Part shown: positions 1,152 to 62,290 of the stretch, piece by piece
How positions within the stretch are numbered: the first letter of the stretch is position 1
Layout of the letters: every line of letters starts with the position of its first letter
DNA from: Aspidapion aeneum
Taxonomy: Eukaryota; Arthropoda; Insecta; Coleoptera; Brentidae
NCBI GenBank assembly: GCA_963576565.1
Contig: OY755042.1
Coordinates: forward strand, 97,334,185 to 97,398,184
Direction: 5' to 3'
DNA length: 64,000 nt
Position numbers and translations under genes: made by a program
Notes under the pieces: generated by a model
Database searches by the model: none
The model's input: the letters and a program-made list of their open reading frames with translations, nothing else
Told to the model about the DNA's origin: nothing

Positions 1152-3080
1152 TCACAACGTTCTACGTCTTCCGATACCCAATCTCCACTCGTTTCTGTTT
1201 GCCCATAATTCATCATCTAGGCCTCTTATTCTTATTTCACTGTCTATTCCTTCTCTCCAGCTTCTCCTTGGCCGTCCTCGTTTTCTTCGGCCAGTTGGTT
1301 TCCATTGTAGTATTTGTTTAGGTAGTCTTTCGTCATTCATTCTTTGTACATGTCCGTACCACACCATTTGTTTTGTTCTTATATCATCCACTAAAGTACG
1401 TTCACCTACTGTCATAATTTCTCTTATTCTTTGATTTGTAACTCTTTCTCTTTTTGATTTCCCTGCTGCTCTTCTCCAATAGTCCATCTCCGTAGCGGAA
1501 AGCATTTTTTCTGTTCTATCCTTGATTGGCCATACTTCTGAGCCGTATGTAATAATACTTTTTATAATGGTGTTATATATAAGCTTTTTGTTATGTTTTG
1601 ATATACTTTGGTCCCAAATTATTCCATTTAATAAAGTTATTGCTTTTCTTCCTTGTACGTTTCGATCTTTTATAGCTTTGTCTAGTGTTCCGTCAGCTGT
1701 AATTTTTAGACCTAAGTATTTATACTCATCACAGGAGTGAATTCGCTGCCCGGTATTTAAGATTAGATCCTGTTTCATTCCACCGATACACATATACTCT
1801 GTCTTATTGAGATTAACCTCTAGTCCCCACTTATTGTACTCTTCTATTAGTTTTCGTGTCATATATTCGAGGTCGTCATAATCCTGAGCCACTACTATCT
1901 GATCATCGGCGAAACATAAAGTATACAAGGTGGTTTCGTCCAACGGAATTCCCATGTTTTGGCATTTTCTCTTCCATACTTTAAGGACTTGTTCCAAGTA
2001 TATCTTGAAGAGCGTAGGCGAGATACAGCAACCTTGTTTAAGACCTTTATTTACTTGAAAGCCTTTGGTTAGTTTTGCTTTTATTTTAACTTTTGCCTTA
2101 CTATTGCGGTATAACTCTTGGATGGCCTTAATTAGTTGTGCGCTGTTTTCCAACGCTTTCCAAAGTAGATTTAGTGGTATACTATCATATGCCTTCTGCA
2201 AATCCACGTAAAGCAGATGCAGCTCTTGACCGTATGCCATTTTCTTTTCAATAACTTGGGTTATACAAAAGAGATGATCTGAAGTCGATCTACCCGCCCT
2301 GAAACCAGCTTGTTCTTCTGCCTCCATGTCTTTATATTCGCTCTCTACTTTATTTCTTATTATTTTACCGTATATTCTGCTTAGCGTACTAGTCACAGAT
2401 ATACCTCTATAATTGTCACATATATCTTTCCTTCCTTTTTTGTGTATTGTGGATATATATGACGTTTTCCACTCAGTTGGGACTACAGTTCCATTTAAAT
2501 ATTTTTGGGAAAGATTCCGTAATCTCCAAAACAGTTCTTCAGTGCCATATTTAATAAGTTCGGCTGGGATATTTCCGGGTCCGGCAGATTTACCGCTTTT
2601 TAAGGTTGTGCACACGTTTTTGACCTCAGAGATTGTGAGGGGTACTGGAGATCCCATCGTTTATATAATTATATTGTCTCTTGCGTCTTCCTTGAATTCT
2701 GCTCTATCTTCAGTTAAAAGTTTTTTAAAATGCTCATCCCATTCTTTGTCTGGTATTGGTGAAATGATATCTCTGCATGTTTCTTTTTTAATCGATCTTA
2801 TAGTTTTCCAGCTTTCGGTACTTCTCCTACCTCCTAAGTAAGAATCTATTTTCTGACACTTTTGCGTCCACGAATGATTTTTCTTATCACTGATCATTCT
2901 TCTCACCTTTGATTGCGCGATTTTGTATTCTTGTCTGCTTCTATCTGTCTTTTGGGATAAGTAGGTGTGATATAATTTCCTTTTTTCCTCTATTTCTCTC
3001 TCAATCTCAGCATCCCACCAGTATGGTTTTCTTCTTTTAGAAGTTTCTTCCACTAATCCTAGTGCTTCTTTTGCAGCTTG
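1152..3080 (-). pseudogene. LINE reverse transcriptase ORF2, one in-frame stop
   Basis: Encodes the C-terminal part of a LINE ORF2: a basic linker (WWDAEIEREIEEKRKLY) followed by a full RT domain and C-terminal tail. In the 501-residue part after the stop, RT motif A (VDLQKAYDSI) is near residue 151, motif B (GLKQGCCISPTLF) near 205, and the catalytic box FADDQ near 249. The tail has the YGHVQRM and RRKRGRPRRSW blocks usual in RTE-type and related insect LINEs. A single TAA at 2661-2663 interrupts an otherwise continuous frame; ATG at 2655-2657 is just downstream and need not be a real start. No endonuclease domain is present. The clade is my recognition: RTE-like is likely, Proto2 or Jockey possible. 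Related copies in the window are at 1-80 and 39342-39970; more distant RTE-like copies are at 30935-31160 and 33727-34850. Confidence 0.85.
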
Positions 3081-13479: not shown

Positions 13480-13525
<46 letters not shown>

Positions 13526-14085
13526 ATGTCTGTCTGTCTGTATGTCTCTATGTCTGTCTGTAACGACCAACGCGCATAACTCAAAAACCGCTTGGCCGAT
13601 TTCAATGAAATTTGGTACCTAGGCTGGGTCTTGGGTCGAGATGGTCCCATTTAAAAATGAACAAAATCCACCGATCACAAACCAAATAAAAGGGTGGGGG
13701 TAGATTTCAAAAATTAGAGTTTATGTGAAAATATGGCATGTGTGATATCAAACGAAAGGTAATTGAGTCTGCAGTTAAACAAAATACATTTTAATTTATT
13801 TTTAAAAAAGGGTGGGGGTATATTTTAAAAATTAGAGTTAAAGTGAAAATATGGCGTGTGTGATATCAAACGAAAGGTAATTGAGTCCGGAGTTTAACAA
13901 AATATATTTTTGTTTTTGTTTTTGTTAAGGGGGGGGGGGTAGATTTCAAAAATTTGAGTCAATTTAGTGTGGAGTTGAATAAAATATATTTCAGTTTTTA
14001 GTTATATTAGCTCACACGTACACTATAACTATAGTACCTAGTGTGAGCTTAGGGGCCCATATATTGGCAGAGTATTTCCTTGTGT
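13345..14085 (+). mobile_element. HINE/DINE-1-like element, copy 1
   Basis: Shares with 17303-18165 and 52133-52865: a hairpin ACTATAGTAGTGTGAGCT near the left end, GGTGATCCTAATTTTT, a (GTCT)n core (13482-13560), AACGACCAACGCGCATAACT, tandem units of about 115 bp with GGGTGGGGGTAGATTT, and a right hairpin AGCTCACAC...GTGTGAGCTT. The left end of this copy is damaged. A (GTCY)n core plus terminal hairpins recalls DINE-1/HINE Helitron-like elements. Frames translating the CTGT repeat (13338-13650, both strands) are artefacts. Confidence 0.6.
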
Positions 14086-17440: not shown

Positions 17441-17478
<38 letters not shown>

Positions 17479-18165
17479 ATGTCTGTCTGTAACGACCAAC
17501 GCGCATAACTCAAAAACCGCTTGGCCGATTTTAATGAAATTTGGTACCTAGGCTGGGTCTTGGTTCGAGATGGTCCCATTTAAAAATGAACAAAATCCAC
17601 CGAACACAAACCAAATAAAAGGGTGGGGGTAGATTTCAAAAATTAGAGTTTATGTGAAAATATGGCGTGTGTGATATCAAACAAAAGGTAATTGAGTCTG
17701 CAGTTAAACAAAATACATTTTAATTTATTTAAAAAAAAAGGGTGGGGGTATATTTTAAAAATTAGAGTTTAAGTGAAAATATGGCGTGTGTGATATCAAA
17801 CGAAAGGTAATTGAGTCCGGAGTTTAACAAAATACATTTTAGTTTTTTGTTTTTTTTAAGGGTGGGGGTATATTTTAAAAATTAGAGTTTAAGTGAAAAT
17901 ATGGCGTGTGTGATATCAAACGAAAGGTAATTAAGTCCGGAGTTTAACAAAATACATTTTAGTTTTTTGTTTTTTTTAAGGGTGGGGGTAGATTCCAAAA
18001 ATTTGAGTTTAAGTCAAAACATGGCTTGTGTGGTATCAAACAAAAGGTAATTTAGTCTGGAGTTGAATAAAATATATTTCAGTTTTTAGTTATATTAGCT
18101 TACACGTACACTATAACTATAGTACCTAGTGTGAGCTTAGGGGCCCATATATTGGCCGAGTATTA
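17303..18165 (+). mobile_element. HINE/DINE-1-like element, copy 2 (most complete)
   Basis: Left hairpin AGCTCACAC...GTGTGAGCT at 17305-17338, (GTCT)n core at about 17443-17489, and about four tandem units of 110-115 bp between 17620 and 18080, each with ATATGGCGTGTGTGATATCA and AAAGGTAATTGAGTC. The right hairpin is at about 18090-18137, followed by GGGGCCCATATATTGGC. No Rep/helicase coding. Frames over the CTGT core are artefacts. Confidence 0.65.
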
Positions 18166-22009: not shown

Positions 22010-22941
22010 ATTCCGTCTATTCCGCTGAATCCGAATATCCCGGTTGCCCCCCCCCCTTTGAAACTTTAACAGGGTCTGAGATATTCAAGATGGCGGCCAA
22101 CATGACGCCGAAATTTTAAATTGAATCTGTAAAGCTCCAGTTGACACACTAAAATGTGTAACTGTATGACCAAAACATAATTAGCTGCAAAAACTCTCCA
22201 GACTCCCCTGTAAACTCTGTAACTTATTTTCCAAAGTTTCTCAAAAACTAAGCTTCTAAGAGAAAAATATATTATTCACTTTATTTTAGAAAATAAAATT
22301 TCCTTTTATTACATCTTTTTAAAAATGAAGGAAAATAGGGAAAAATATGTAATAATAATAAAATTTTGCCTTGATTCCCTAGATTTTGTTTGGTTGCTTC
22401 AACGTCACAAAAAAACCTTAACGTAATAAAGCATTACTCGACCGAAAAGTCGTAAAACCGTACACTTTAATTGCATTTAATTTTGCTGGGTAAGAAAGCG
22501 TGCATTGCCTACCTCAATAAGAAAAGGGTTGATCAAAGTAACCTTACTCATGTATGTAGTCAATGGTCATGCAAGAAGGGCCACCTATAGAATCATGGCC
22601 AACTACCATAGCATGATAGCAATGACTAGAGAGCAATGATTAATAATAGTAGAGAATTCAAGGTAGAATCAATGTTCTGTAGTCATTGGTGGAATCAAAT
22701 GGCCTTAACAAGAAAATAAACGGCAACCTAGTCTACTCGAGGCTTTATACGATGTTGTTGGATAGGTTTGACATTTTCTGGGTTTTTAAGTGTATGTTTT
22801 GCTATGATCCCCCAAGCCTAAGGATTGTTTACATATTTTCCACATATTTCATGAAATGGCGCCTCTTGCTATAGTTCGCTCACTAATTACATTTAATTAG
22901 AGACAAAACCGTCTGATTAACTTCGCAAGATTTGTCACTTG
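22010..22941. other. No gene recognised
   Basis: Includes a C10 run at about 22049, a GATGGCGGCCAACATG block and generic AT-rich sequence. The open frame 22686-22874 has no domain. Confidence 0.4.
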
Positions 22942-23003
22942 ACCAACAGTGTTCTGAGGAGTCCCATAAGGACGAAACGGTTAACTGTCAACACTTATTA
23001 GGT
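22942..23003 (+). ncRNA. Type I hammerhead ribozyme motif
   Basis: All conserved parts are in order. Stem I is AGTGTT (22948-22953) with AACACT (22990-22995), six pairs. The core CTGAGGA (22954-22960) fits CUGANGA. Stem II is GTCC (22961-22964) and GGAC (22970-22973) with loop CATAA. GAA of the core is 22974-22976. Stem III is ACGG (22977-22980) and CTGT (22985-22988) with tetraloop TTAA, and C at 22989 is the expected cleavage base after GUC. An outer ACC/GGT pairing (22942-22944 with 23001-23003) leaves an internal loop in stem I that could dock on loop II. The very short stem III is typical of metazoan type I hammerheads found in retrozymes and Penelope-like elements. Activity is inferred, not shown. 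Confidence 0.9.
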
Positions 23004-23314
23004 GTCCATTAGATCTTGGACCCCCGTGAGGTTAAGCTTTCAAGCTACCCACGGAAAAATATAAGGGAAACAAAAAACTCCTTTATGCCCGATTAGCCAT
23101 GAAACTTGTTTGATTTTTAAATTCACGGGTATGAAATTTCACGTTTGTTTATCCATATTACCCGGCGAGTTTACATAATTCCCAACTCGTAATGGTGAAT
23201 ATAATAAATAGCTTGACTGCTTGAGTCAGTAGCATATAGTGTACATTTTTATAGTTATTGGGTCAGAATAATACTCTTATATAGTGTAATAGTAAAGTTT
23301 AGCAGACAATAGAG

Positions 23315-23841: not shown

Positions 23842-25845
23842 TTACTTATTTAGACATGTTAGACAATTATGACATTTCGAATTACAAAGTTTTTCTGATT
23901 TTTTACATTTGCACTTATCAGATTTGCATTGTCCCTTGCAAGCACATCGTTGGTATCCCTGACCTCCAGATATAGATGATTTTCTAACGCATTCTCGAAG
24001 AGATATAATTATATCAGGAATATCGTCAAGCGAAATAAATTGTTCTTCACAAATTGCAAATTCATTTGTGGTATATAGCTGCGAAAGTTTTCCCTGTTGT
24101 ATTCCTAACTGATAAAATTGTTCATTTTTAACTTCTGTTATCACCGCTAATAAATTTCGTTGATCGCTCCTTGCTCTGTCAACGTCTGGCACTCGTAGTT
24201 TCACTGTATCCCCTACTTTAGCACAAGAAAATTTAACATTCGAAGTATTCCTCATTTTCTTTGCTTGTGATTCTAAGCCTTCTTTTGCATCTATTCTTTC
24301 ATTTCTTACTTTTTCTTGCCTAGTTGAAATATCTGTCTGGATTGAAGAGCCTGCCTCTTCATCTTCGTTCTGAGTCTCCAATTTAACATTTAGTGGTGAG
24401 TCAATTTGCGGTGGATCGTTATTGTTAATGTTAGAGTCAGCGGCGTAGCGTGGGGGGTTCGTCGCCCCCCCCGCCCCGAGGGTAATGGCGCCCCATAGGT
24501 GGGAGAGGCGCCCTCGTGACGTATCGGGCGCCCCCTCATACATGATGACCTTTTTTTTTTTTAGTTGCAAGATTCGTCAGAGGCGCCCTTGTGACTTATC
24601 GGCTGCCCCCTGACATATGATGACCTTTTTTTTTTTTTTTGGTCGCAAGATTTGTGAGACGCGCCTTTTTGACCTTTTGGTTTTTTTTTCTGCCATAAGA
24701 TTTTTCATCAGTTTTCAGAGGCGCCCTTTTTAGCTGTCGCCCCCCCGCCCTTTCGGGCACGCTACGCCGCTGGTTAGAGTCCTCTTTTGTTTCGTTGTTA
24801 CCATCTTGCGAAGCGATGTTTACTGTCTCGATTAAAGCCTGAAGCTCTTCTTCGGTTTTGAGATGTTCGACAGAGTCGTTCGGTAAAGAAGAAGTTTTCA
24901 AGCCTACTTTTGCAGGCGTGCCAAACATTGCCTCGTAAGGTGTGCGCTTGATGCCTTCATGAAATGCCCTATTTTTCATAAATTGTACAAATCGTAACCC
25001 TTCAGACCATTTACTAGTTTGATTGCTTTCCAACCAAGAACTTAGCATATTTTCTATATCCTGGTTTGCACGTTCGACCGAGCCTTGGCTTTGACTGTGC
25101 CTGGGCTTTCCGTGCACAATTTTAAGATTCTGCCACATAGCACAAGCTTCTTCCACGATTCGCTTGCTAAACTCACGGCCATTGTCACTTTGTAGCACAC
25201 TGGGAGCACCAAATATAGTAAATATATCAATTAGATGATATGCAACCTCTTCTGCACGTTTGCTTTTAAGAGCAACTGTACGAATTTTGTCAAGTGGTCT
25301 TGATAGACAAATATGAATTTAAATTCATTATCTGCTTGCGACTGCATATCTATTAAGTCTATCTGGCATCTTGAGTTCATCTCTTGAAAGACCATTGTCC
25401 TAACAACAAGTCCTTTCTTGGGTACCTTTGATTTTTTTTGACAACTTTCACACAAATTCAAATAAATCATCACTTCTTCAGCAGTGATATTTTTGTACCT
25501 CTTTTGAAGTTCTTTTACCATCCTGTTTCTACCACCATGTCCGATTGATAAATGTGTATCATGACTAATGGTAAAAAGCTCTTCAAAATAAACGTAAAAC
25601 TTAACATGCGAACTGTCCTCACTTACAGGGAATATAAGTTTTTCAGCATTACCTACTTTCATTATGTCGTATCTTTTAAGTCTTTGATAATCTTCCGGTT
25701 TTTTTCCACTAGATTTGTTTTTACTAGTACTCACTTTTTTTAACAAGTCATCATATTTTTCTTTCGTTAGAAAGCCACTGTTCGTCTTCTTATTCTTCAT
25801 AATATTAACTAGCTTGGAATTAAAACGCTTAAGCAAACCAGCCAT
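23842..25845 (-). pseudogene. KRBA2/SCAND3-like integrase gene, frameshifted and MITE-interrupted
   Basis: Single-exon gene in three broken parts. Part 1 (25845-25231) begins at an ATG with an in-frame TGA two codons upstream. It has an HHCC zinc finger (His98, His103, Cys132, Cys135) and the first integrase Asp in QIDLIDMQ (Asp166). Part 2 (from about 25270, frame visible to 24781) continues in another frame: it carries the second Asp in LQSDNGREF and the Glu in QSQGSVERAN, 36 residues apart. One base appears to be missing near 25265-25275. Part 3 (24429-23842) has GDTVKLRVPDVDRARSDQRN and a Cys-rich C-terminus (CACKGQCKSDKCKCKK). A hAT MITE separates parts 2 and 3. Without the lesions the product would be about 550 residues, normal for insect KRBA2-like integrases, which descend from retrotransposon or Ginger-type integrases. 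Whether this was a host gene or a mobile element is unclear; no TIR or LTR was found. Confidence 0.85.
24438..24772. mobile_element. hAT MITE, perfect 15-bp TIR, 8-bp target duplication
   Basis: Perfect 15-bp inverted ends CAGCGGCGTAGCGTG (24438-24452 and 24758-24772), flanked by identical GTTAGAGT (24430-24437 and 24773-24780). Internal sequence has repeated GGCGCCC-type blocks and T-runs. The 335-bp insertion splits the integrase-like gene; the reading on either side would rejoin across one copy of the duplication. Confidence 0.95.
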
Positions 25846-46282: not shown

Positions 46283-46540
46283 AAAAATTATTGTGCGTGC
46301 TTAAGACCACACGGCAGAAGTGTAAACTTCAACAAGGCGAAATTAATAATACTGGCCCATAATATATTCTGCAAAGCGGACCGAACCTATCTCTTCTGTG
46401 TACTGGCCTTCATCTGCATCATCATATCGCTCGCTGAATGTTTATCACAGTTAGTCGACTCAAGCCGATTTCACCCGAATGAGCGTTACATACCCGAGCC
46501 TGACGGCTCAGTTCAATTCACTACCCACAAAAACTGCTAA
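46283..46540 (+). CDS. Exon-like ORF, duplicate 1, with membrane segment
   Basis: Stop at 46538-46540; the frame stays open upstream, so no start is defined. It encodes NYCACLRPHGRSVNFNKAKL, then a hydrophobic segment (YLFCVLAFICIIISLAEC) and a polar tail with RFHPNERYIPEPDGSV. GC content and C-ending codons stand out against the AT-rich flanks, which suggests real coding history. Possible splice acceptors are TTGTCTTAG (46251-46259) and CACACGGCAG (46309-46318). It could be the last exon of a host gene or a transposon piece. Duplicate 2 begins 283 bp downstream. No family recognised. Confidence 0.35.
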   Translation, partial: KNYCACLRPHGRSVNFNKAKLIILAHNIFCKADRTYLFCVLAFICIIISLAECLSQLVDSSRFHPNERYIPEPDGSVQFTTHKNC

Positions 46541-46563
46541 ACGCGCCTAAAGAAGTTTACACT

Positions 46564-46823
46564 TCAAAAATTATTGTGTGTGCTTAAGACCACACGGCAG
46601 AACTGTAAACTTCAACAAGGCGAAATTAATAATACTGGCCCATAATATATTCTGCAAAGCGGACCGAACCTATCTCTTCTGTGTACTGGCCTTCATCTGC
46701 ATCATCATATCGCTCGCTGAATGTTTATCACAGTTAGTCGACTCAAGCCGATTTCACCCGAATGAGCGTTACATAGCCGAGCCTGACGGCTCAGTTCACT
46801 TCACTACCCACAAAAACTGCTAA
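46564..46823 (+). CDS. Exon-like ORF, duplicate 2
   Basis: Identical to duplicate 1 except for four base changes, all of which alter the amino acid (Ala to Val, Ser to Thr, Pro to Ala, Gln to His). The stop codon is at 46821-46823. The frame is open upstream to 46551, after a TAA at 46548-46550. Its membrane segment is intact. Each copy ends with its own stop, so if this is a gene the copies would be alternative last exons. The linker between copies is about 25 bases. Confidence 0.35.
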
Positions 46824-47149
46824 AACGTTCCGAATGTCAAATATAAATGCAGCTTTACTTCTAATTACCATGTAAATTTAACTTTCTTCCAAATGTGTCA
46901 GTTGGGCTCTGTGTTAATATGTAAGTATCTATTACCTATATGTAGATATAAAAGTTGAATAGGTACCGGTTTCAGTGTTCTGATGGACTAGTTTTTTTTT
47001 GGGTAGCCTAATATTGACAATAGATTTTATCGTAGAATGGTCTGGCTAGACTGCCTCATTAAAATTGTATTTCTAAATTATTTATTCCCTTTAAAATTAC
47101 ATATGGGAGATAGATTAAATATCTATAAAAAATAATACAAAGTTTTTAG
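46824..47149. other. No gene recognised
   Basis: AT-rich spacer. A possible AATGTCAAATATAAATG follows the second ORF but no canonical AATAAA was seen within 100 bases. Confidence 0.35.
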
Positions 47150-52021: not shown

Positions 52022-53040
52022 AAAGCCAAGTACGCGAAAATGGTATTCCGTAAAACGAATTGAGATAAAAGTAGTGAAGTTCTCCAATACAAATTTCAAA
52101 ATGAAAGGTTCTTACTAGTTTGAAAATGTTTTAGCTCACACTATCACTATACTATAGTAGTGTGAGCTATGATGGTGATCCTAATTTTTTCTCGAAAAAA
52201 AAAGTTGCTCCGATTTAAAAAATTTTTATATATCTTTGCGTTTCAGATGATTTTAAAACTTTTTTGTCGTGCGGTCTGTCTGTCTGTCTGTATGTCTGTT
52301 TAGGTGTCTGTATGTCTGACTGTCTGTCTGTAACGACCAACGTGCATAACTCAAAAACCGTTTGCCCGATTTGAATGAAATTTGGTACCTAGGCTGCGTC
52401 TTTGGTCGAGATGGTCCCATTTAAAAATGCACAAAATCCACCGAACGTAAGCCAAATAAAAGGGTGGGGGTAGATTTTAAAAATGGGAGTTTATGTGAAA
52501 ATATGGCGTGTGTGATATCAAACGAAAGGCAATTGAGTCTGCAGTTAAACAAAGTACATTTTAGTTTATTTAAAAAAAAGGGTGGGTCAAAAATTAGAGT
52601 TTAAATGAAAATATGGCTTGTGTGGTATCAAATGAAAGGTAATTGAGTCTGGAGTTAAACAAAATACATTTTAGTTTAAAAAAAAAGGGTGGGGTAAATT
52701 AAAAAAATTAGAGTTTAGGTCAAAACATGGCTTGTGTGGTATCAAACGAAAGGTATTTGAGTCTGGAGTTAAATAAAATATATTACAGTTTTTAGTTATA
52801 TTAGCTTACACGTACACTATAATTATAGTACCTAGTGTGCGCTTAGGTGTCCATATATTAGCAAAGTATTTTTCAACTTTACTATTACAGCCAAGCTTCT
52901 TTACGTTTAATTAAGCACTGTGCTTAAGAGTCATTTGTAGGCGTAATAGCCAAGTTTAGAAAAACATTTTCAAAGTAGTACAAACCATTTATTTTGAAAT
53001 TTGTATTGGAGAACTTGGCTTTACTTTTATCTTATCTTAT
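52022..53040. mobile_element. Foldback MITE interrupted by HINE-like element
   Basis: Left part 52022-52132 and right part 52866-53040 correspond to the uninterrupted copy at 44560-44865 (GCCAAGTACGC, AATACAAATTTCAAAATGAA, and on the right CTTTACTTTTATCTTA). The HINE-like element sits between TTTT and TTTC, in a T-rich target. Confidence 0.85.
52133..52865 (+). mobile_element. HINE/DINE-1-like element, copy 3
   Basis: Left hairpin AGCTCACAC...GTGTGAGCT at 52135-52170, a short imperfect (GTCT)n core at 52275-52331, three diverged tandem units with AAAGGTAATTGAGTCTG, and a right hairpin followed by GTCCATATATTAGC. More decayed than copy 2. Its borders are set by comparison with the MITE copy at 44560. 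Confidence 0.7.
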
Positions 53041-60654: not shown

Positions 60655-62290
60655 CAAGCGAAGATTTAAGGGGGGTAACGTGGTAATTACCCCCCCTAGA
60701 AAAAAATATTATACATTTTTAGTTAATAAATAAAGGGCTTAACGGATAATTACCCCCCCCTTGAAAAAAAATAAATGCACAAATATTTTTTTCGTCGACA
60801 AATACCCATACTCCTCCCTAGATTTATGCTCAGATCCCCGCTTGATGGGGCCATCGAGATGCGAAAAAACCACACCCTAATTCAAGATTCGGAAATACGA
60901 CATTTAGCGAATTTTAGGGTAAGAAATCCCATAAAACCAAAATGGCCAAACTTTGAAAATTCATATTTCAAAAACTATACATTTTATCGACAAAAGCACC
61001 GAGTTGAAGTATGGTGGGGCCATAGAGATGCGAAAAAATCAAAGCCTGAGTTAAGATTCAAAAAAACGTCATTTAGCGAATTTTAGGGCATGAAATCCCA
61101 GAAGACCAAAATGGCCAAACTTTGAAAATTCGTATTTTAAAAACGATTTAGTTTATCTACAAAAGTACCGAGGTGCAGTATGGTGGAGCCATAGAGATGC
61201 GAAAACACCACACCCTGAGTTAAGATTCGGAAAAACGTCATTTAGGGAATTTTACGGTAGGGAATCCCATAAGACTAAAATGGCCAAACTTTAAAAATTC
61301 ATATTTTAAAAACTATACAGTTTGTCAACAAAAGCACCGAGTTGCAGTATTGCGAGGCCATAGAGATGCGAAAACACCACACCCTGAGTTAAGATTCGGA
61401 AAAACGTCATGTAGCGAATTTTACGGTAGGGAATCCCATAAGACCAAAATGGCCAAACTTTAAAAATTCATATTTTAAAAACTATACAGTTTATCAACAA
61501 AAGCATCGAGTTGCAGTATTGTGAGGCCATCGAGATGCCAAAAAACCACACCCTAAGTTAAGATTCGGAAATACATCATTTAGCGAATTTTAGGGTAGGG
61601 AATCCCAGAAGACCAAAATGGCCAAATTTTGAAAATTCATATTTCAAAAACTATACAGTATATCGACAAAAGCACCGAGTTGCAGTATGGTGGGGCCATA
61701 GAGATGCGAAAAAACCACACCCTGAGTTAAGATTCAAAAAAACGTCATTTAGTGAATTTTAGGATAGGGAATCCCATAAGACCAAAATATCAAACTTTAA
61801 AAATTTATATTTTAAAAACTATACAGTTTATCGACAAAAGCACCGAGTTGCAGTATGGTGGGGCCATAGAGATGCGAAAAAACCACACCCTAAGTTAAGA
61901 TTCAAAAAAACGTCATTTAGTGAATTTTAGGATAGGGAATCCATAAGGCCAAAATGGTCAAACTTTAAAAATTCATATTTCAAATACTATACCCTTTAAT
62001 AACAAAGGCACCGAGTTGCAATATGGTGGGGCCATAGTGATGCGAAAAAAACCACACCCTAAGTTAAGATTCGGAAAAACGCCATTTTGCAAATTTTAGG
62101 GAATCCCATGAGACCAAAATGACTAAACTTTGAAAATGAAAAACGAAAGTACCGAGTTACAGTATGGTGGGGCCAAGGCGCGGATTTGAGGGGGGGTAAG
62201 GTGGTAATTACTCCCCCCCCCCTAAAAAAATAGATGCACTTTTAGTTAATAAATAAAGGGCGTCACCGATAATTACTCGCCCTCCAACGG
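60655..62290 (+). repeat. 168-bp tandem array between 110-bp direct repeats
   Basis: About eight units lie between 60790 and 62160, each with ACCGAGTTGCAGTATGGTGG, GGCCATAGAGATGCGAAAAA and AAATGGCCAAACTTTGAAAA. They are flanked by direct repeats at 60660-60780 and 62165-62290 that share GGGGGGTAA, GTGGTAATTAC, a C-run, TTTTTAGTTAATAAATAAAG and GATAATTAC. The direct repeats contain GGGGGGTAA...TTACCCCCC hairpins. The frame 60775-61086 is translated repeat. This could be one element with terminal direct repeats and an amplified core. Confidence 0.8.

Follow-up and report, generated by a model that had tools for sequence, protein, structure and literature searches.

A dispersed non-coding repeat with a type I hammerhead ribozyme motif in Aspidapion aeneum and its Penelope-like insertion plan

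For the enzyme that returns animal retrozymes to DNA, LINEs or Penelope-like elements (PLEs) have been named as candidates (PMC11722881), and retrozymes were tied to PLEs by co-occurrence, shared hammerhead ribozymes (HHRs), and tandem copies (PMC7229834, PMC4918200, PMC7761336, PMC11722881). These papers, like the others used here, are cited from excerpts of their text. Animal Penelopes were described with adjacent inverted pLTRs, duplications of 8-10 bp, and an optional 31-bp tail, and head-to-head was the commonest of their junctions (PMC3846280). In a PLE of the anole, reverse transcription starts internally, two start sites bound the tail, the HHR lies upstream of these sites, and both strands of the target undergo cleavage and extension at AT-rich places; the element is organised as tandem repeats and is expressed (PMC11167929).

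The DNA analysed here (the window) is a stretch of 64,000 nucleotides from the beetle Aspidapion aeneum. A single hammerhead motif in it was followed into the 1.286-Gb assembly (149 contigs), where its carrier, left unnamed by the first-pass annotation, could be identified as a dispersed non-coding repeat, which often forms head-to-head tandem arrays. The absence of a second copy from the window was confirmed, and many copies lie elsewhere in the genome.

The hammerhead motif in the window

The type I motif lies on the plus strand at 22942-23003 (sequence, Rfam, descriptor, and covariation) and includes an outer helix of ACC (22942-22944) and GGU (23001-23003). Stem I pairs 22948-22953 with 22990-22995 and is followed by the catalytic core segment CUGAGGA (22954-22960), by stem II, backed by sequence and covariation (GUCC/GGAC, 22961-22964 with 22970-22973, loop CAUAA at 22965-22969), and by the GAAA core segment (22974-22977). 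Stem III pairs 22977-22980 with 22985-22988 around the loop UUAA (22981-22984); its four pairs include one G.U, and it is nearly palindromic. The GUC triplet occupies 22987-22989, from which a cut at 22989/22990, between GUC and AAC, is predicted. With the CUGANGA ... GAAA ... NUH core and three stems, of which stem I is open, the features of a type I HHR are present; every piece of the complete type I hammerhead claimed earlier could be read directly, and the cleavage position then given holds as a prediction from the motif.

A strict descriptor found this site as its only match on both strands of the window. Under a dinucleotide model, 12 completions in 200,000 trials set the chance expectation at 0.0009 per 64 kb and at about 18 per 1.286 Gb. 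The motif is therefore improbable by chance in the window and unconvincing on its own at genome scale, so that proof was needed from its relatives. Rfam model RF00163 scored it at 24.7 bits (E 0.002 in a 1-kb search), under the gathering score of 34, which is a curation threshold and not a structural feature; a low score of this kind had been listed by the first-pass annotation as speaking against its own claim. The isolated 69-nt stretch has a minimum-energy fold of -16.6 kcal/mol and an HHR fold of -9.1 kcal/mol, so the HHR fold is not preferred, and the stretch showed no unusual folding stability (z -0.41). For the circles of plant retrozymes, a blocked HHR conformation is mentioned in the excerpt of PMC4918200. 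Judged from the sequences compared, the motif at 22942-23003 is real, and this is settled by the genomic copies.

A second HHR family was met at L002:1797-1839 (minus) and L001:1501-1547, with CUGAUGU in place of CUGANGA. At 40.6 bits, it was the sole RF00163 match above the cut-off when the best 74 of 155,298 candidates were scored, and the loci sampled, including 20 10-kb stretches, held no further copy.

The carrier repeat and constraint on its ribozyme

The first relative found (L001/L002) is 93.1% identical to window positions 22868-23113 over 247 columns. A DNA search of the genome, with the best 40 of 322 candidates scored, gave at least 41 matches at 97-100% identity, and among the matches listed a spacing of 511-515 bases in four places revealed the full unit. 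This unit is about 512 nt long (510-519 nt), and a natural unit of 514 nt, L024:2742-3255, served as reference; the predicted cut falls after its position 134. GC content is 0.393, and the longest frame reaches 80 aa across four tandem units, so the unit lacks the RT/GIY-YIG reading frame expected of a PLE. As a circle, the unit has a predicted fold of -131.8 kcal/mol with 60% of bases paired, compared with -114.6 (sd 6.6) for shuffled sequences, of which 1 in 60 was as low. When contigs 5 and 9 were sampled at even intervals in 20 stretches of 10 kb, 3 of these contained copies (L013, L020, and a 68-column fragment in L007), which leads to an estimate of about one copy per 67 kb or 19,000 genome-wide, with a wide error as it rests on these three copies.

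The copy in the window (22856-23149, plus strand) is partial and single-armed, comprising unit positions 1-296 with 98.3% identity over 296 columns to the 514-nt reference. Just 3' of the ribozyme lies a conserved stretch (23005-23035, plus; unit 150-180) with 0/31 substitutions in L002 and in L013 and 3/31 in L020. From the positions at which arms end in other copies, 23111-23118 (plus) is the equivalent of a short end site, S (unit 256-263), and 23145-23149 (plus) is a long end site, L, which forms the 3' limit of the window copy at unit 296 and lies at 293-306 in other copies. The tail between S and L (23113-23149, plus) is present. No tandem partner was found beside this copy, and its flanks contain no clear target duplication.

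The 5' limit of the ribozyme repeat is abutted by a different short repeat (22808-22856), with matches in 5 of the 20 sampled stretches (L007, L008, L014, L020, and L022). Elsewhere in the window, three consecutive frames at 23842-25845 (minus) resemble an element of the integrase type; the frame that is read first has a weak Integrase_H2C2 match of 24 bits at a cut-off of 25.5. A (GTCT)n run followed about 125 bases on by a 110-120 bp tandem repeat occurs three times (13480-13959, 17441-18091, and 52274-52791), 46283-46824 holds a 283-bp tandem duplication with 98% matching, and 60846-62137 a 169-bp tandem array of 7.7 copies.

A survey with a 69-position model yielded 80 HHR matches in 29 sources, corresponding to 77 sites, as three were seen twice in the overlaps L026/L049, L027/L050, and L029/L052. 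They form 20 distinct rows with 98.6% of cells paired. Three stem pairs have changed on both sides, a number reached in 0 of 500 shuffles, to be read with the caveat that the alignment was fitted to the structure and that three cells are few; for the first four copies only, the two two-sided changes observed were reached by 35 of 500 shuffles. Copy L020 carries a change from G-C to A-U in stem I and from C-G to U-A in stem II, and L040 another from C-G to U-A in stem II, so that two of the four stem II pairs show compensatory changes. Genomic copies with compensatory stem changes, for which the first-pass annotation had proposed to look, thus exist, as do the tandem arrangements that it had also suggested checking. 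The core is intact at 72 of 77 sites (75 of 80 matches) and broken in L013, L002, one HHR of L034, and two of L026; in L020, L033, and L047 the core passes and stem III is weakened.

In older copies, substitutions in the HHR and the next 31 bases compare with those in the 5' flank as 3/97 versus 9/71 (L002), 3/97 versus 4/42 (L013), and 10/97 versus 19/64 (L020). Among young copies there is no such contrast for the HHR, with minor cells at 0.0115 in the HHR, 0.0060 in the 5' flank, and 0.0121 in unit 259-514. Taken together as a comparison of copies, this indicates that the ribozyme has been kept under constraint. At unit position 91 (window 22946), in the internal loop of the HHR, A and G alternate and are split within single insertions at 6 of 12 loci, as could result, among other causes, from editing of the RNA before it is reverse-transcribed.

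Insertion architecture and a proposed route of mobilisation

Young insertions often take the form of head-to-head tandem arrays, in which one arm can span as many as 4.9 laps. The arms point outward, an inverted arm being followed by a forward arm, and among the matches listed all nine mixed-orientation arrays run minus-then-plus. In total, 28 insertions were examined (24 plus those in the window, L002, L020, and L007, with the second insertions in L050 and L044 counted); most come from best-match lists, and young copies are over-represented. Fifteen have two arms whose outer ends both fall at standard sites, namely C8 (L049+L026), C9 (L027+L050), C2 (L028+L051), L023, L024, L025, L030, L032, L034, L013, L041, L042, L043, L045, and L046. 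Each of the 15 combines a short end (unit 256-263) with a long one (293-306), if the end in L046, which aligned to 271 and runs into its duplication, is scored as short; in 8 of them the left end is the short one, in the other 7 the right end. Two further two-armed insertions have one end elsewhere (L031 at unit 176 and L048 at unit 433), and six are single-armed (L052+L029, L033, L040, the second insertion in L050, the window, and L002). In L050, the second insertion is an inverted arm 460 bases past the forward arm of the first; since a duplication of its own already closes the first, the two were counted separately. The copies in L020 and L007 are degraded, and both L044 arrays and L047 are cut by the edge of the stretch.

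Target duplications, whose scores may contain 1-2 bases of chance overlap with the ends, reach at least 8 in 14 of the 15 and at least 12 in 11; L034 has none, and that of L023 has one mismatch. When flanks of different insertions were paired as a control, 13 of 210 pairs reached 8, with a maximum of 11. The central junctions, computed for all 15, show an overlap of 0-10 nt in 11 and 2-14 extra bases in 4. Arms start near unit 258 or 297 and run toward unit 1, through the cut site and into the preceding unit; S lies about 125 nt and L about 165 nt beyond the HHR cut. An inverted adjacent copy, short target duplications, and an optional tail of 30-40 nt characterise these 15 insertions and not the window copy.

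The longest arms were found in L045 (4.87 laps) and L041 (4.09 and 4.05 laps). As arms pass the cut site at unit 134 and reach 4.87 laps, a cleaved linear monomer is excluded as the template. Within L041, units differ by 0.14%, as opposed to 2.1% between this locus and others; four minor alleles are fixed with 0 split sites, and an HHR variant private to L041 among the examined loci is present in all 8 HHRs of both arms. L024 differs by 0.3% within and by 1.5% from other loci, and neither L023 nor L024 has split sites or much internal difference. Split sites, with alleles that are also seen elsewhere, occur in 7 of 23 array rows (three in C8, two in L028, and one each in five others), and the arms of C8 differ by 3.2%. 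Together with the splits at position 91, this means that not every array fits one circular template; the allele splits could stem from mixed templates, from strand switching, or from RNA editing. Differences within arms that lack split sites (4.0% in L040 and 3.5% in the left L044 array) would be explicable by age.

The head-to-head plan, tail included, is the same as the published PLE signature, which leads to the reading of a Penelope-type enzyme and upholds the kinship with animal retrozymes and PLEs that the first-pass annotation had seen. The repeat is probably a non-autonomous retrozyme, a circular RNA of which is likely to serve an enzyme with RT and GIY-YIG domains as template for several successive laps, primed at each of the two 3' ends of a staggered cut. 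Read-through transcription of the repeat would yield an RNA that cleaves itself at the predicted HHR site and might be closed into a circle by a host ligase. A PLE enzyme would bind this RNA and make the staggered target cut, both target strands would prime on the circle, one reverse transcription starting from L and the other from S, the two cDNAs would join at the centre of the insertion, and gap filling would produce the target duplication. We infer self-cleavage, the circle and its use as template, two-strand priming, central joining, and the role of a PLE enzyme. On this model, the copy in the window would stem from an insertion with only one arm retained, which ends at the L site. The anole element shows the same start sites on both strands in vitro, does not need HHR cleavage there, and is reported without RNA ends at the HHR site in the excerpt of PMC11167929, and these results count against a simple form of the model.

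Candidate enzymes are present in the genome. A search for GIY-YIG domains gave at least 91 matches with the best 150 of 633 candidates scored, some of which may be host genes; four frames were checked, of which those in L035 and L036 combine RVT_1 with GIY-YIG and the other two, both partial, have GIY-YIG only. A PLE protein search found many stop-free frames of 820-846 aa among the best 70 of 105,958 candidates, and several of the matches listed stand in minus-then-plus arrays, for example C6:76431553-76451247 with a spacing of about 3,132 bases. PLE frames, many of them stop-free, are likewise arranged head-to-head or in tandem at C2:147070488-147080406 and C134:30490-37212, the spacing being about 3.1-3.3 kb in two of these three places; such stop-free arrays suggest recent activity. 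No convincing blastn match linked the unit to the PLE stretches L035, L036, L037, L038, and L053 (best, 23 antisense bases, E 0.026), and Rfam gave no match on L053 up to E = 1. Minimal HHR-like strings in L035 and L038 have one extra base before stem II, are not found by a stricter script, and were rejected as ribozymes.

An autonomous partner was considered in L039/L040 and discarded, as the long frame there is a 5'-truncated P0001-family LINE inserted into the unit. The GIY-YIG match in the same stretch resembles an exon of the host gene SLX1. The window itself carries a LINE reverse transcriptase at 1152-2657 (minus; 501 aa, PF00078) with relatives of 96-97% identity in L001 and, inside a repeat unit, in L040; named relatives of the protein are from beetles and other insects.

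Explanations that depart from this proposal concern the template, the origin of the arms, the enzyme, and the motif itself. Instead of a circle, the template might be a linear multimer transcribed from a genomic array and copied by an otherwise identical PLE-type reverse transcription. The split of alleles of other loci within insertions, most of all in C8 and L028, and the splits at site 91 favour this, as does the tandemly repeated and expressed anole element (PMC11167929). It is opposed by the near-identical laps on both arms of L041, L024, and L023, and a 5-mer RNA would need to escape five intact ribozymes; on balance a linear template seems unlikely. We hold it similarly doubtful that inverted arms arise by self-priming, that is, by hairpin extension on one cDNA or antisense template and not from two target-strand primers. 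Self-priming has been proposed for Penelopes (PMC3846280), in 4 of the 15 insertions the inner arm ends are no more than 20 unit positions apart (0 in L024, 4 in L034, 9 in L046, and 18 in L041), and the arm junction of L024 has a 10-nt overlap. However, these ends are more than 20 positions apart in the other 11 (e.g., 422/278 in L023 and 143/373 in L042), and self-priming alone does not yield one short and one long outer end.

That a P0001-family LINE mobilises the repeat and the likeness to PLEs is coincidental is very unlikely. LINEs have been proposed to mobilise retrozymes (PMC11722881), and members of this family adjoin copy L002 and sit inside copy L040, but the one in L040 has inserted into the unit and is not a partner. 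Moreover, we know of no LINE pattern in which head-to-head tandem arms come with an alternative tail. Least credible of all is a chance motif or relic in an ordinary repeat without a ribozyme role: the score under the Rfam threshold, the chance matches expected genome-wide, the more stable alternative fold, and an HHR no less variable than the rest among young copies would agree with it, whereas the three two-sided compensatory changes in stems I and II and the 72 intact cores would not.

Relation to retrozymes, Penelope-like elements, and insect satellites

The proposed circular template and Penelope-type enzyme may have a wider bearing. It is about an even chance that animal retrozymes in general are Penelope satellites, which would jump by two-handed rolling-circle reverse transcription with one start at L and the other at S and leave a head-to-head concatemer. 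If true, the genome would be a direct fossil record of DNA synthesis templated by circular RNA, and a rule of two-site initiation would explain the Penelope tail too. The multi-lap arrays, the best of them with near-identical laps, match what is expected of circular RNA copying and point to a simple reason why Penelopes are built head-to-head and carry a tail. The paired short and long ends offer a concrete feature that can be counted and that connects a non-coding ribozyme repeat to insertion of the PLE type, and both this pairing and the lap pattern are checkable in other genomes with existing data. A literature search largely confined to papers outside subscription found no description of such paired ends in work on retrozymes, no head-to-head retrozymes, and no hammerhead ribozyme in a coleopteran SINE.

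Like the metazoan non-LTR retrozymes, as far as the excerpt of PMC7229834 describes them, the repeat consists of non-coding tandem units that each contain a type I HHR (the window copy itself being single), has a GC content under 45%, and is flanked by target duplications of more than 4 bp. Unlike them, it has a unit of about 512 nt, compared with reported sizes of about 170-400 nt, which are a range and not a definition, and it forms two-armed head-to-head arrays with paired short and long ends, which that excerpt does not describe. With Penelope/Poseidon-type PLEs (PMC3846280, PMC11167929), it shares inverted pieces placed head to head, partial tandems, target duplications of about 8-14 bp, the optional tail of 30-40 nt, and an HHR upstream of the start of reverse transcription; it differs in having no reading frame over 80 aa and in an HHR with a stem III of four pairs plus loop in place of the minimal form. 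The pDo500 satellite of Dolichopoda cave crickets (PMC2837043) is likewise an insect tandem repeat with an HHR, a G-U pair in stem III, and compensatory changes. It is organised in satellite arrays, for which the excerpt gives no two-ended insertion pattern, in contrast to the repeat of Aspidapion aeneum, where this pattern is found.
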